Position numbers and translations under genes: made by a program. From Cognatishimia activa (GTDB lineage: Bacteria > Pseudomonadota > Alphaproteobacteria > Rhodobacterales > Rhodobacteraceae), in assembly GCF_001458335.1 (NCBI RefSeq), contig NZ_CYTO01000009.1, forward strand, positions 382,385-446,384: a DNA stretch of 64,000 nucleotides, read 5' to 3'. This document shows positions 49,834 through 55,188 of the stretch, piece by piece (position 1 is the first letter of the stretch; every line of letters starts with the position of its first letter). The notes beneath the pieces were generated by a model. It did no database searches. It was not told where the DNA came from and saw only the letters and a list, made by a program, of their open reading frames with translations.

Positions 49834-50883
49834 TTACGACCGTGCGCGTAGGAGCCAAAGGAAGAAACAACCACCGATCAAACCAGTGACGATCCCAATC
49901 GGCAGATCCTCTGGCGCAACGACCTTGCGGGCAATGACGTCAGCCCACAGGACAAACAGCCCGCCAAACAAACCAGACACAGGCAGCACCCGGCGATAAT
50001 CGCCGCCCACAAACCGGCGGGCGATGTGAGGCACCATAAGACCGACAAAGCCGATCATGCCTGAGAAAGCGACCATGACTCCGGTGATCAGAGCGGAAAT
50101 GACGAAGACTGTCAGGCGGAACCGCTTGACCGAAATGCCGAGCGTGGTGGCGGTTTCATCGCCGATCGTCATGGCGTTCAGATAAGGCGCGTTTAGCACT
50201 GCCCAAACAGCGCATGGCAGAAGGATAATCAGCGGGTAGATCAGATGGCTCCATTGCGCGAGCCCCAAGCCACCAAGCATCCAGAACACAACGGTATGGG
50301 TGGCTTTCGGGTCTCCGAGGAAAATCAGCACATTGGCGAGTGCCATTACGATAAATGAGATGGCGACACCGGTCAGAACCAATCGGTCCGCGCTGCTGGA
50401 TTGGGTGAATCGCGTAACGCCTAGGACCAACAGCGTTGCGGCGAGTGAGCCAAGAAAGGCCATCAAAGGCACGGTCAGAAGGCCAAGAAACAAGCCAGTG
50501 TGCAGCAGCGCCAAAATCGCCCCGAATGCACCGCCGGATGAAATTCCCAAAAGATGGGGGTCAGCAAGCGGGTTGCGCGTAACGGCCTGCAACATAGCGC
50601 CAACAAGCGCCAAACCGCTGCCCACCATGATAGCGAGCAAAATACGCGGGAAACGGATGTCCCAGACAATGGCCTCGCGGCCTTTGGACCACGTGGTCTC
50701 GACAGTTTCAGGGCTGATCTTGTTGATCACCACACCCCAGACTGTGTCGACGGGGATCGAAATGGCTCCGGTCCCCACCGAAATGGTGATCGAGGCCAAA
50801 AACAATGCCCCCCAAAGCAGAACCTGCATCGCCATAGGGCGATTGGTTTTGCGCGAGGGTGTTTTTTTGGCCTCGGTCGTCAT
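49834..50883 (-). CDS. FecCD/BtuC-family ABC permease, probable cobalamin or corrinoid uptake
   Basis: A 349-residue inner-membrane permease with about ten hydrophobic segments. RFPRILLAIMVGSGLALVGAMLQAVTRNPLADPHLLGISSGGAFGA is the family signature, and MIGFVGLMVPHIARRFVGGDYRRVLPVS is the ATPase-coupling region. FecCD/BtuC permeases import siderophores, haem or B12; the cobalamin riboswitch at the head of this operon favours a corrinoid or cobalt complex. It starts 2 nt after the binding-protein gene. Confidence 0.9.
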   Translation of the reverse strand: MTTEAKKTPSRKTNRPMAMQVLLWGALFLASITISVGTGAISIPVDTVWGVVINKISPETVETTWSKGREAIVWDIRFPRILLAIMVGSGLALVGAMLQAVTRNPLADPHLLGISSGGAFGAILALLHTGLFLGLLTVPLMAFLGSLAATLLVLGVTRFTQSSSADRLVLTGVAISFIVMALANVLIFLGDPKATHTVVFWMLGGLGLAQWSHLIYPLIILLPCAVWAVLNAPYLNAMTIGDETATTLGISVKRFRLTVFVISALITGVMVAFSGMIGFVGLMVPHIARRFVGGDYRRVLPVSGLFGGLFVLWADVIARKVVAPEDLPIGIVTGLIGGCFFLWLLRARS

Positions 50884-50885
50884 TC

Positions 50886-51818
50886 TTACTTGCTCCAGAA
50901 CGCTTCAGACAGGGTTTTCACTGCCTTGATGTTGCGCGGACCTGGGGTCGCGTCAACATATTCCAGAGTGACGAAACGATCGTTCTTCACCGCGTCCAAT
51001 TCAGCAAAGGCTGGGTTGTTCATCATGAAGGCGCGCTTTTCTTCCGCAGTTACGTTGCCGTAGTTCACGATCACAACCACTTCAGGGTTCTTTTCAACAA
51101 CTGCTTCCCAGTTCACGGTGCCCCAGCTTTTCTCAAAGTCATCCATGACGTTGGTGCCGCCGGCCGCTTCGATCAGCGCGGTTGGCATTGCATAAAGGCC
51201 TGCGGTGAACGGCTTGTCTTCGCCGCTGTCATAAACGAACACGCGCAGTGGGTCGCCGGTTTCCAAAGTCTCTTGGAACGCCGCAAGCTCTGCTTTGTAG
51301 CCGTCGACCAGCGCTGCCGCTTTGTCTTCTACGTCAAAGATTTTGCCCAAGTTCAGCAGATCGTTGTACATGTCATCCAAGCTGGCTTTTGGCTTGTCGC
51401 CCACGTGGATGCAGCTTTCCGTCAGCTCGTATACGTCGATGCCGAATGGTGCGAGAGACTCCGGTGTGACTTCGCCGCCCACTTTCATGCCGTAGTTCCA
51501 GCCCGCGAAGAAGAAGTCCGCGTCCGCGCCGATCAGCACTTCTTTGCTTGGGTATTTTGCGGACAGTTCTGGCAGTTCTTCAACACCGGATCGCATGTCC
51601 TCATCCAGAGTTTTCCAGCCGGAAATGCCAGTGTAGCCGACCATTTTGTCCGCCAGACCCAGAACAAGCATCATCTCTGTGAGGTTCACATCGTTAGAGA
51701 TCGCAGCTGTTGGCACCTTATCAAAGGTCACATCGCGGTCACAGCTTTGTACGGTAACGTCCGCTGCGGCTGCACTTGCCAGGCCCATCAGGCCAAATGC
51801 GATGGGGAGGGATTTCAT
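50886..51818 (-). CDS. BtuF-like periplasmic binding protein
   Basis: A class III periplasmic binding protein of about 310 residues. The start is ATG 51818 (MKSLPIAFG) because AAGGACA lies about 7 nt upstream; an in-frame start at 51833 would precede that site. The signal peptide ends near SAAAADV. VTFDKVPTAAISNDVNLTEMMLVLGLADKMVGYTG and NPEVVVIVNYG match the Fe-siderophore/B12-binding family. Two cysteines (CDRD and ESCIHVG) may pair. Specificity for corrinoid is inferred from the riboswitch. Confidence 0.88.
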   Translation of the reverse strand: MKSLPIAFGLMGLASAAAADVTVQSCDRDVTFDKVPTAAISNDVNLTEMMLVLGLADKMVGYTGISGWKTLDEDMRSGVEELPELSAKYPSKEVLIGADADFFFAGWNYGMKVGGEVTPESLAPFGIDVYELTESCIHVGDKPKASLDDMYNDLLNLGKIFDVEDKAAALVDGYKAELAAFQETLETGDPLRVFVYDSGEDKPFTAGLYAMPTALIEAAGGTNVMDDFEKSWGTVNWEAVVEKNPEVVVIVNYGNVTAEEKRAFMMNNPAFAELDAVKNDRFVTLEYVDATPGPRNIKAVKTLSEAFWSK

Positions 51819-51829
51819 TGACTGTCCTT

Positions 51830-52636
51830 TCAATGAGAGAGTTGGAATGTAAATTGGTTTGTTTGGCTCAGGCTTAGCTGTTCCAATTGAGTCGAAACGT
51901 CAAAAACCGACGATACAAGGTCCGTTGACAACACTTGGTCCGGCGGACCAAAGCCCATGGCGTTGCCATCTTTCAGCACCAGCACATCGTCGCAGGCTTG
52001 CATGGTCATGTTCAGATCATGCAATGAAACGATGATGGTCAGGTCGAGATCCGAGATCAGATGCAGGATTTCCAGCTGATGACGGATGTCCAAATGGTTG
52101 GTGGGTTCATCCAGCACCAATACCTTTGGCAACTGGGTGAGGGCGCGCGCGACCATGACACGTTGGCGTTCGCCCCCTGAAAGGGTGCCGAACTCGCGAT
52201 GGGCCAGCGCACCCAGATGCATGCGTTCCATGACCTCGTCGATGATCATGTCATCGTCTTCGTTTGTGGTGCTAAAACCCAAACGATGAGGCAGGCGGCC
52301 CAAGGCGACTACGTCGCGCACGGTAAGTGCAAAATCCGTGGCCTGTTCTTGCAGAACCGCGGCAACCACACGGGCGACGGCACGCGGGGCCATCGACCAG
52401 ATGTTTTGCCCATCTACTTCGATCCGTCCCGTCGCCGGAACGTTAAAGCGATAAAGTAGGCGCAACAGAGTGGACTTGCCTGCTCCGTTCGGCCCAATGA
52501 GGCCAAGCACACGGCCAGCTTGCAAATGAAAGCTCAGAGGTTTGAGGATCAGCGGCTCTGAGGCACTTGGACCCCATGAGACGTTGTCGACCTTAACATC
52601 CGCGCTGCCGAGGTTCGCTCCGGACAGGCAGCTCAT
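51830..52636 (-). CDS. BtuD/FecE-like ABC ATPase
   Basis: A 268-residue ATPase. Walker A GLIGPNGAGKSTLLRLLYRF is near residue 46, the signature is LSGGERQRVMVARALTQLP, and Walker B is VLVLDEPTNHLDIRHQLE, all typical of FecE/BtuD proteins. Its ATG overlaps the stop of the DUF1636 gene by 4 nt. It should energise the permease at 49834-50883. Confidence 0.9.
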   Translation of the reverse strand: MSCLSGANLGSADVKVDNVSWGPSASEPLILKPLSFHLQAGRVLGLIGPNGAGKSTLLRLLYRFNVPATGRIEVDGQNIWSMAPRAVARVVAAVLQEQATDFALTVRDVVALGRLPHRLGFSTTNEDDDMIIDEVMERMHLGALAHREFGTLSGGERQRVMVARALTQLPKVLVLDEPTNHLDIRHQLEILHLISDLDLTIIVSLHDLNMTMQACDDVLVLKDGNAMGFGPPDQVLSTDLVSSVFDVSTQLEQLSLSQTNQFTFQLSH

Positions 52637-53040
52637 TGCACAAGTTCCGGCGTGGCTTCAAAGGCGATGATGGAGGCGGGGACCCGCGCCAACGTGGACT
52701 TGCGCAGCTTTCCCGGCCGGTCGACAGAGCTGCACCAGCCATCATTCAGGAACGCATAGGTTTTTGCGAAATTCACGAGGTCATCGATGTCTTGGTCTGG
52801 ATCAATGTCGCCAAAAAGATAGGTGGCTTTGCGCGAGCCAAAATAGGCCACGGTGCATGGGCGATTACAGCCCGCCATGCAGGCGGTTCCTGAGATTTCG
52901 AATTCTTCAGGGATTGCATCGCCCGCAGCGGCAATCGCATCGCGCAGTTTTAAGATTAGGTCATAGCCCGGCCGACAGCTTTGGTCTTTGTGACGGCAAG
53001 AGGTACAGACAGTAATTTGGTGAGTGCTTTTCCGGTTCAT
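52633..53040 (-). CDS. DUF1636 metal-binding protein, first full gene after the cobalamin riboswitch
   Basis: A 135-residue cytoplasmic protein with a thioredoxin-like ferredoxin appearance. Cysteines occur as CTSCRHKDQSC at the N-terminus and CMAGCNRPC in the middle, suitable for a metal or [2Fe-2S] site; WCSS follows later. DUF1636 proteins are recurrently found with cobalt and B12 genes. Its Shine-Dalgarno sequence (GGAGG, 53046-53050) is partly inside an 18-bp palindrome, and its ATG overlaps the stop of a 25-codon upstream ORF. Function unknown; a corrinoid- or cobalt-handling role is inferred. Confidence 0.85.
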   Translation of the reverse strand: MNRKSTHQITVCTSCRHKDQSCRPGYDLILKLRDAIAAAGDAIPEEFEISGTACMAGCNRPCTVAYFGSRKATYLFGDIDPDQDIDDLVNFAKTYAFLNDGWCSSVDRPGKLRKSTLARVPASIIAFEATPELVQ

Positions 53041-53114
53041 CTCGCCCTCCGCGCATGCGCGGAGCGTGAAGGTAGACCAGTCATGTCAAAGGCCGGAGCC
53101 AAATAAGTCATCAT
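53037..53114 (-). CDS. 25-codon upstream ORF coupled to the DUF1636 gene
   Basis: ATG 53114 is preceded by a strong Shine-Dalgarno GGAGGG (53121-53126) with 6-nt spacing. The peptide begins MMTYLAPAFDM and ends in a basic stretch HARRAR. Its TGA (53039-53037) overlaps the DUF1636 ATG as ATGA. Ribosomes finishing this ORF would melt the palindrome that covers the DUF1636 ribosome binding site. It lies just downstream of the riboswitch, so the riboswitch may gate this ORF first. No peptide function is known to me. Confidence 0.6.
   Translation of the reverse strand: MMTYLAPAFDMTGLPSRSAHARRAR
53047..53064 (-). promoter_or_regulatory. Palindrome occluding the DUF1636 ribosome binding site
   Basis: CTCCGCGCATGCGCGGAG is a perfect 18-bp palindrome. 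As RNA it can fold into a 7-bp stem with loop CAUG, and its 3' arm (GGAG) contributes to the Shine-Dalgarno sequence 6-10 nt before the DUF1636 start. This would block initiation unless it is opened by ribosomes from the upstream ORF. Confidence 0.62.
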
Positions 53115-53156
53115 AGGTTTCCCTCCGAGGCACCCCGCCCGGTTTGGTTACAACAA

Positions 53157-53345
53157 TGATGGCAGGTATCCTGACTTACGGGTCGTCGCGTCTCTGATCC
53201 TTCCCAGGCCTTCCCAAGTGGTGGGCCCAGTGGCTATTCAGAGTTGCTCGCCGCTTACAGTTGCGGGGGCAGTTACGGAATTGGCAGCTGTGAAGCGCGC
53301 CGCACCGTATTCCCTTTTACAAGGCATGCGCCTTGAAACCATCGA
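53157..53345 (-). ncRNA. Cobalamin (AdoCbl-type) riboswitch
   Basis: On the minus strand the conserved elements appear in order: P1 GATGG (53343-53339), AAAAGGGAATACGGTGC (about 53318-53302), CCCCGCAACTGTAAGCGG (53268-53251), GCCACTGGG (53234-53226), GGGAAGGC-type segments (about 53216-53203), and the B12 box AAGTCAGGATACCTGCC (53177-53161) closing with P1 CCATC. All match the canonical cobalamin riboswitch. It precedes the DUF1636/ABC operon; with no obvious terminator stem after it, control is more likely at translation. Confidence 0.93.
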
Positions 53346-53495
53346 GGAGAGAGCTAACAGCGCACGGTTCACCTTGTCAATCACGATTGCTGCGGCGCAA
53401 TAAAATGACGCCACGACGCTTATCGCTGGACAAAGCTATGTGGGTTTGGCTACCTCGACAATACGCCACAAATTGTTCTGAAAGACCAATAAATT
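53346..53495. promoter_or_regulatory. Divergent promoter region, riboswitch leader and pxpB
   Basis: About 150 bp between the 5' end of the riboswitch and pxpB should contain both promoters. I see no strong -35/-10 pair or operator and no extra ORF. Confidence 0.35.
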
Positions 53496-54185
53496 ATGCC
53501 CCAAGCCCGGTTCACTGCGGTTTCTGACCATGCTGTTTTGGTGCAGTTGGGGGATGAGATCAGTGATAAGATCAATCTTGAGATCCAGTCGCTAGATCGA
53601 GCAATTGCTGCCGCTGGGATCAACGGTTTCTTGGAATCAATCCCGGCCTTTGTGAACATTTTGGTGGTATTTGATCCTTTGGTAACTGACCACGGCAGCA
53701 TCGAGGCGGCGATCAAACCGCTGTTGGCAGATGTTTCTGCGGTTCAAGGGCGGGGGACAGAGCGCGTGGTCCGGGTCTGCTATGATCTCGATATCGCGCC
53801 GGACCTGTCCGAAGTCGCTGCGCAGGCGGGGCTTTCTGAGGATACGGTCATCAACATGCATCTTGGCGCGTCCTACCGCGTGGGCATGTATGGCTTTGCA
53901 CCCGGCTATGCTTACCTTTCCGGCGTGAATGAAGCGATTCAAGTGCCGCGCAAACCTTCGGCCTTGCGCGATGTCCCGGCAGGGAGCGTTATTATCGCTG
54001 GGCCTCAATGCTTGGTGACGACCCTGACCATGCCGACGGGTTGGTCTATCATTGGTCGCTCGCCAACAGAGATCCTGACTGACAATCCGCGACATCCGTT
54101 CCTGTTCGATGTGGGTGACACGGTTCGATTTGAGCGCATTGACCGCGCAACCTTTGAAGCAGAGAAAGGTCTGCGCCATGGGTGA
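53496..54185 (+). CDS. pxpB: 5-oxoprolinase subunit PxpB (KipI-like)
   Basis: A 229-residue protein of the KipI/PxpB family, a subunit of the ATP-dependent bacterial 5-oxoprolinase that opens pyroglutamate to glutamate. The core LGASYRVGMYGFAPGYAYLSGVN and RKPSALRDVPAGSVIIAG, TGWSIIGRSP are diagnostic cyclophilin-like segments. Its 3' end overlaps pxpC by 8 nt. PxpA (LamB/YcsF family) is not next to it in this window. Confidence 0.9.
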   Translation: MPQARFTAVSDHAVLVQLGDEISDKINLEIQSLDRAIAAAGINGFLESIPAFVNILVVFDPLVTDHGSIEAAIKPLLADVSAVQGRGTERVVRVCYDLDIAPDLSEVAAQAGLSEDTVINMHLGASYRVGMYGFAPGYAYLSGVNEAIQVPRKPSALRDVPAGSVIIAGPQCLVTTLTMPTGWSIIGRSPTEILTDNPRHPFLFDVGDTVRFERIDRATFEAEKGLRHG

Positions 54186-55188
54186 AGCGCGTCTCAAAGT
54201 GGTGGCCGCAGGACCCTTAGTGACCGTGCAAGATGCCGGGCGCACGGGTTATATGCGCTTTGGTGTCGCTGCGAGCGGTCCTATGGACCGCTTGTCTCAT
54301 GCGGCGGGCAATGTTGCTCTTGGCAACGCACCTGAGGCGAGCGGCATCGAGATCTCGATGGGGGGATTGGTGTTGGAATGTGTCAGCGGCACCCTTTCTC
54401 TCGCGGTGACAGGTGCCGACTGTTTGGTCGAAACCTGCGGCGACAGTTTGGGCAGTTGGAATGTTATCTCGTTGTCGCCGGGCGAGCGCTTGTCGATCCG
54501 TGCGGGTCACAAGGGCAGTTGGGCGTATTTGGCTTTCGCCGGGAATTTAGAAAGTCAGGAATGGCTTGGTCACAGCGCGACCCATTCGACCTCTGGGTTC
54601 GGTGGCGGTGCTTTAAGCGCTGGGCAGGTCCTGACCGTTCGCGATGCTGCCCTGCGCGAAGATCGCCATGGCGCCATTGAGCGCCCCGCCATTGCTGCAA
54701 GCGAGGCCATCCGCGTGGTGATGGGCCCGCAGGACCGGTTCTTTGATCCAAGTGCTCTTTCTGCGCTACAGGAACAGCCGTTTAGACTGTCCGCGCAATT
54801 TGACCGAATGGGCGTGCGCCTAGATGGGCCGAAATTGTCAATAGATGGGGCATTGTCGATCCCATCAGAACCGGTTGCGAAAGGCGCAATTCAGGTTGCT
54901 GGAGATGGAACACCCACCGTGCTGCTTGCTGATCATCAAACCACAGGCGGTTATCCTAAGATTGCCACTGTGATCAGCACCGATCTGGATCGAATAAGCC
55001 AGATGCGCGCAGGGGATGTGGTGCATTTTGAGGCGGTTTCGCCTGAGCAAGCCGTCTCAATCGCACGAGACAAGGCTCTGAAAATGCAGGTGTATTTAGA
55101 AGAAGTGGCGGTCCCGCGGGGAACGCTTGCACAGAGGCTGATGCGGGAAAACTTGATCAGCGGCGCAGTCTCTGAAACGCCAGACTGA
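54178..55188 (+). CDS. pxpC: 5-oxoprolinase subunit PxpC (KipA-like)
   Basis: A 336-residue biotin-dependent-carboxyltransferase-like (KipA) protein. [25 protein letters not shown] at the N-terminus and [56 protein letters not shown]-type segments later on are family signatures. The start is ATG 54178 (MGEARLKV), because an in-frame start at 54109 adds PxpB-overlapping sequence unlike the family. It acts with PxpB on 5-oxoproline; a terminator follows the stop. Confidence 0.9.
   Translation: [336 protein letters not shown]

Follow-up and report, generated by a model that had tools for sequence, protein, structure and literature searches.

What might explain why the expression platform of a cobalamin riboswitch lies against the Shine-Dalgarno sequence of a 25-codon open reading frame (ORF), when the DUF1636 gene that follows has a strong Shine-Dalgarno sequence of its own? 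The locus is on the minus strand of a 64,000-nucleotide stretch of the Cognatishimia activa genome (hereafter the window). From comparison of related leaders, we think it probable that the riboswitch is a translational OFF switch acting through the short ORF (the relay ORF, or uORF), and that the elongating ribosome unmasks the second start. The parts of the locus are as follows.

53144..53358, minus strand: cobalamin riboswitch aptamer (RF00174), found by Rfam cmscan over model positions 1-189 of 189
53269-53263, minus strand: L5 kissing-loop sequence CCCCCGC, read from the sequence
53125..53142, minus strand: P13 expression-platform hairpin CCGGGC-GGGGU-GCC(U)CGG, with L13 = GGGGU, read from the sequence
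53121..53126, minus strand: Shine-Dalgarno GGAGGG of the short ORF (SD1), read from the sequence
53037..53114, minus strand: 25-codon relay ORF, read from the sequence, whose TGA stop overlaps the DUF1636 ATG
53091..53100, minus strand: hairpin A inside the relay ORF, GGC-UCCG-GCC, from a stem search in leaders
53047..53064, minus strand: hairpin B inside the relay ORF, CUCCGCG-CAUG-CGCGGAG, 7 bp, predicted by folding; its 3' arm holds the DUF1636 Shine-Dalgarno
53045..53050, minus strand: Shine-Dalgarno GGAGGG of DUF1636 (SD2), read from the sequence and nearly invariant among relatives
53040-53037, minus strand: ATGA stop-start overlap, read from the sequence
52633..53040, minus strand: DUF1636 gene (PF07845; Pfam E 9.9e-30)
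51830..52636, minus strand: ABC transporter ATPase (PF00005), BtuD-like by context
50886..51833, minus strand: periplasmic binding protein (Peripla_BP_2, PF01497), BtuF-like by context
49834..50883, minus strand: FecCD-family permease (PF01032), BtuC-like by context

The canonical cobalamin riboswitch recognized in the initial annotation is confirmed by an end-to-end RF00174 alignment at 53358-53144, which scores 115.6 bits in Rfam cmscan against a gathering cut-off of 31.5, and the minus-strand sequence likewise contains the short ORF with the GGAGGG and the TGA/ATG overlap (ATGA) described there; the product of the ORF (53114-53037) is MMTYLAPAFDMTGLPSRSAHARRAR. From the sequence and general knowledge of the family, we take the CCCCCGC at 53269-53263 to be the conserved L5 CUGCCCCCGCAAC of cobalamin riboswitches, and L5 CCCCGCAACTG is present in 52 of the 52 non-redundant leaders described below. 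In the window, the 3' strand of P13 overlaps SD1; in the compared loci P13 is conserved, with 88-99% of cells paired, and the CGGGG of P13/L13 adjoins SD1 with helix support. The sequences for an L5-L13 kissing contact are present, and the contact itself would be expected to form. The DUF1636 fold is a thioredoxin-like relative of [2Fe-2S] ferredoxins (PMC4520260), and the operon that it heads, judged by its content and by the riboswitch, is probably a BtuCDF-like B12 uptake set. Just past the upstream end of the riboswitch begins a divergent allophanate-hydrolase-like pair (a CT_C_D domain ORF and the next ORF; 53496-55188, plus strand). Elsewhere in the window there is a 130-bit match to the Rfam family 5_ureB_sRNA (RF02514; 23681-23966, minus strand), which may reflect only conserved ureB coding sequence and no sRNA, because the family is an antisense RNA to ureB. 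By eye, a relay-type ORF is absent at the other two B12 riboswitches of this genome.

Sequence searches were made at genus, family and class level, in plasmids, and by scanning named genomes with an alignment query. The genus and family searches and the named-genome scan yielded 102 distinct DUF1636 loci with a riboswitch upstream, mostly from Rhodobacteraceae, with some from Labrenzia, Hoeflea and other records; the 94 unfused loci were used to count open frames, and 52 leaders of less than 85% identity formed the non-redundant set. The frame from the riboswitch-proximal start is free of stops beyond the DUF1636 start in 93 of the 94 unfused loci, compared with 31 and 40 for the other two frames and with a mean of 58 and a maximum of 70 in dinucleotide-shuffled leaders, and it is open in all 52 non-redundant leaders (16 and 22 for the other frames). 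In the exception, locus L025, a stop codon ends the frame at 12 codons, and an ATGA restart then gives access to a second open frame. The riboswitch-proximal start codon (AUG1) is AUG in the unfused loci apart from one GUG, follows SD1 at normal spacing and, like SD1, is kept at the same place in relatives, so that the loss of frame or Shine-Dalgarno among close relatives that the initial annotation had named as telling against its proposal was not seen. The distance from AUG1 to the DUF1636 AUG (AUG2) is 64-82 nt, mostly 67, 70 or 73, and varies mainly in steps of three. On the DUF1636 tree, which is poorly resolved, the leaders require no fewer than 30 changes of length, whereas class (frame, fused or split) changes only 14 times, and the approximately 11 separate shifts to the other frame are scattered tree tips, every one of which stays open. 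For the window leader alone, approximately 62% of dinucleotide shuffles remain open as far as the relay ORF, so a single-locus ORF is no better than chance and its significance comes from the comparative data only.

Is it the peptide or the act of translation that has been kept? Counted over 24 independent close pairs, the relay ORF has 87/87/84 substitutions by codon position, and 35 of 183 changed codons are synonymous, a share no higher than in other frames. The first part of DUF1636, used as the control in the same pairs, has 61/47/242 substitutions by codon position and 210 of 288 changed codons synonymous, and because of this strong third-position signal the test has power. The suggestion that the peptide might itself have a function is therefore not upheld; of the properties to be sought by aligning the leader across relatives, the start and frame are kept, but the ATGA overlap and a synonymous bias are not. 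Since the frame is kept open while substitutions show no codon-position bias, it is probably ribosome passage that is selected and not the peptide. Neither does the ORF resemble a classical amino-acid-sensing or stalling leader peptide, there being no codon-position bias and the peptides differing widely among loci. An apparent G-S and RGG peptide motif was rejected, RGG being simply the translation of the Shine-Dalgarno sequence in the commonest frame, and the codon test being negative. Programmed frameshifting into DUF1636 was also rejected, because the frame relation varies among loci and DUF1636 keeps its own Shine-Dalgarno.

AUG1 is a real, usable start, because there are loci in which it is read into DUF1636. 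In one supported clade (L037, L038, L040, L041, L042 and L044), and likewise in Gemmobacter and a Sinorhizobium plasmid, the riboswitch-adjacent AUG reads straight into DUF1636 and the region of the second start has been lost; two lineages have fused AUG1 to DUF1636 in this way. In L009 and L043, AUG1 is in frame with DUF1636, but the hairpin and Shine-Dalgarno are retained. The N-terminal extension of the fused clade shows some third-position bias (73/52/102, from pairs that are not independent). On the Sinorhizobium meliloti plasmid NZ_CP148088.1 (L138:2447-2890), the start of DUF1636 appears to be annotated too far downstream (at 2576), and an in-frame AUG just 3' of the riboswitch gives an N-terminal extension common to the fused Rhodobacteraceae clade, which suggests horizontal transfer.

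The initial annotation had missed the hairpin within the ORF that holds the Shine-Dalgarno of DUF1636, which is also how a ribo-attenuator holds its second ribosome binding site. RNA tests were anchored on each hairpin, in place of whole-leader RNAalifold, the consensus of which is poor because the hairpins shift register. Against dinucleotide shuffles, the mean MFE z is -1.27 for P13, -1.02 for hairpin A and -1.31 for hairpin B. Hairpin B is predicted in 52 of 52 non-redundant leaders, and in the group-1 alignment 94.6% of its cells are paired, but its pair changes there are one-sided only and covariation is weak; the pairing probability of SD2 is 0.80, no higher than with shuffled, composition-matched C-rich upstream sequence. 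Because of the one-sided changes and this control, hairpin B is supported by its folding energy and its ubiquity more than by covariation. Hairpin A has a stem score of at least 10 at its place in 83% of the 52 non-redundant leaders, compared with 29% of shuffles; its arm pairs are many and different across leaders, both-sided pair changes are found in group X, and the relay reading assigns it no role.

In the mechanism that we propose, when B12 is bound L5 would kiss L13, P13 would be stable and no ribosome would load at SD1. When B12 is absent, initiation at AUG1 would produce a short peptide, the sequence of which would be irrelevant, and passage of the ribosome would melt hairpin B and expose SD2 for a new round of initiation. 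The relay ORF of nearly all species ends well inside DUF1636; that of the window ends at the ATGA, where reinitiation may contribute as well. B12 control and translation of the relay ORF would be expected from knowledge of the riboswitch family, and we infer the unmasking step in addition. More tentatively, and with more doubt than belief, the leader could be viewed as a portable natural ribo-attenuator, in which selection would act only on passage through a relay ORF of free sequence, and L13 would be an antisequestor that pairs by turns with L5 and the L5-like arm of hairpin B, so that one ligand would gate two start sites.

Could the conserved open frame be explained in another way? It is unlikely that the answer is polarity control, in which the relay ORF would keep ribosomes on the nascent leader and prevent Rho termination and mRNA decay. 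This likewise needs an open frame and no peptide sequence, and Rho has been suggested for the Mycobacterium tuberculosis metE riboswitch (PMC11260477) and is reported for the Mbox uORF (PMC12810186), but polarity control leaves the hairpin around SD2 unexplained. Together with reinitiation, it may contribute to the relay.

Somewhat less probable still is termination-reinitiation at the stop-start overlap, as in uPPE2-PPE2, where ribosomes that terminate on the short ORF start anew at the AUG of the overlap. The mechanism has been shown for uPPE2 (PMC11260477), and the exact ATGA geometry is found in the window, L049 and L129. However, these are the only three of the 94 loci with the overlap; in the other unfused loci the relay ORF stops 17-176 nt inside DUF1636, which, unlike ppe2, has a strong Shine-Dalgarno of its own. 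In the sister species (L005) the AUG-AUG distance is one base shorter and the relay ORF ends approximately 50 nt inside DUF1636, and the ATGA of the window is the product of a one-base change in its lineage. With the overlap in three loci only and the sister species reading so far past the start, termination-reinitiation at ATGA cannot be the general device. The initial annotation had proposed that B12 gates translation of the ORF, the ribosomes of which then start DUF1636; the strongly conserved ORF start, Shine-Dalgarno and open frame fit this proposal, but not the ATGA as its coupling device.

Below this we place, as improbable, a direct long-range switch: without B12, L13 (GCGGGG) would part from L5 and pair instead with hairpin B, on its 5' arm, which often repeats the L5 word CCCCGC; SD2 would become free, and translation of the ORF would be incidental. 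Complementarity between this arm and L13 exceeds that of shuffles (z -1.33, t -8.4) and is at least equal to its complementarity to the Shine-Dalgarno; CCCCGC is found in 25 of 52 arms, and L5 in every leader. Yet such a switch needs no open frame, MFE folds use the L13-arm pairing in 7 of 52 leaders, below the 20% found with shuffled arms, and because L13 and the Shine-Dalgarno region are alike, complementarity to the one implies complementarity to the other. It is possible as an added layer over the relay. A chance, functionless ORF between riboswitch and gene is very improbable, for although the ORF is unremarkable in the window alone and its peptide is not conserved, it is open in nearly all loci against about a third to two fifths for the other frames, and the in-frame fusions use the same AUG.

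The relay module is not confined to DUF1636. A structural DNA pattern picks it up in 59 of the family's 395 genomes (nearly one per genus), where the reversed control pattern gave 1 match; two genomes from a second family of Alphaproteobacteria also have it. Two further gene sets with unrelated first genes follow the module, one with an unnamed gene of approximately 100 aa beside a BtuF-like or MetH gene (MetH named by eye), and one with a 48-aa gene beside a metal-type ABC transporter (also named by eye). In 15 further loci, distant DUF1636 genes included, the relay ORF is open in 15 of 15, compared with 10 and 11 in the other frames, a small excess when taken alone. The approximately 100-aa family (MLLERTITTLQ...), without a Pfam match, lies between the relay and a BtuF-like or MetH-like (by eye) gene in L170 and L140. 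In L177, L191 and L202, the relay is followed by an ORF of 42-48 aa and by an ABC transporter whose ATPase and permease are of metal type (ZnuC/ZnuB-like by eye), possibly a B12-regulated importer of cobalt or another metal. L175 and L180 retain the leader module, but between it and the ABC ATPase there is an ORF of only 41-56 aa and no intact DUF1636; this is apparent decay or loss of DUF1636 behind a kept relay.

The initial annotation was right that such layouts are rarely described for cobalamin, but there is a published case. In M. tuberculosis ppe2, the L13 hairpin of a B12 riboswitch masks the Shine-Dalgarno of the short ORF uPPE2, and ppe2 expression depends on uPPE2 translation (Kipkorir et al. 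2024, PMC11260477). That system shares with the window the cobalamin riboswitch, the L13 hairpin over the short-ORF Shine-Dalgarno and the AUGA overlap, and in the relay loci, too, the riboswitch Shine-Dalgarno serves the conserved short ORF and not the main gene. In the M. tuberculosis case, ppe2 has no Shine-Dalgarno, termination-reinitiation at AUGA dominates, and the aptamer is of the unusual class IIb. The Rhodobacterales module differs in that a strong Shine-Dalgarno, enclosed in a hairpin, precedes the downstream gene; its overlaps are mostly long, and it is spread over many genera and several operons. Synthetic ribo-attenuators (Folliard et al. 2017, PMC5496857), which were tried on the E. 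coli btuB B12 riboswitch, have the same order of riboswitch, short ORF, hairpin with the second ribosome binding site in its downstream arm, overlapping stop-start and gene, and passage opens the hairpin. These are engineered constructs in which the junction is always TAATG and approximately 150 bp of the native ORF is included; a natural relay ORF, in contrast, generally runs to 25-53 codons, in most cases lacks a stop-start junction and contains the extra hairpin A. The relation would be one of working alike and not of descent, the passage requirement being read from an open frame without peptide conservation. In the S. meliloti metA SAM-II riboswitch, also alphaproteobacterial, the Shine-Dalgarno at AUG1 is required for translation from AUG2, 74 nt downstream (PMC9373788), a spacing similar to that of the relay, but AUG1 is dispensable, is in frame with AUG2 and has a terminator between it and AUG2; in the relay, elongation from AUG1 is favoured by the conservation of the open frame. 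The conserved uORF controlled by the Mbox of M. tuberculosis (PMC12810186) and the small intergenic ORF of Salmonella mgtB (PMC8092293) are described as small translated ORFs between an RNA sensor or masked ribosome binding site and the real gene; they are Mg2+ systems and are likened to the relay by description.

Because ATGA, long-overlap and in-frame-fused variants all exist in nature, unmasking can be tested directly against reinitiation. Gene callers and riboswitch surveys can name the wrong first target for relay-type switches. Engineered ribo-attenuators appear to have a natural precedent in the relay of marine Rhodobacterales. The literature was searched within open-licence papers, and an earlier report of the leader may exist outside them. 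Riboswitch relay ORFs are a widespread and apparently unannotated class in an ecologically important group of bacteria, in which evolution appears to keep the translation of an ORF and not its peptide.
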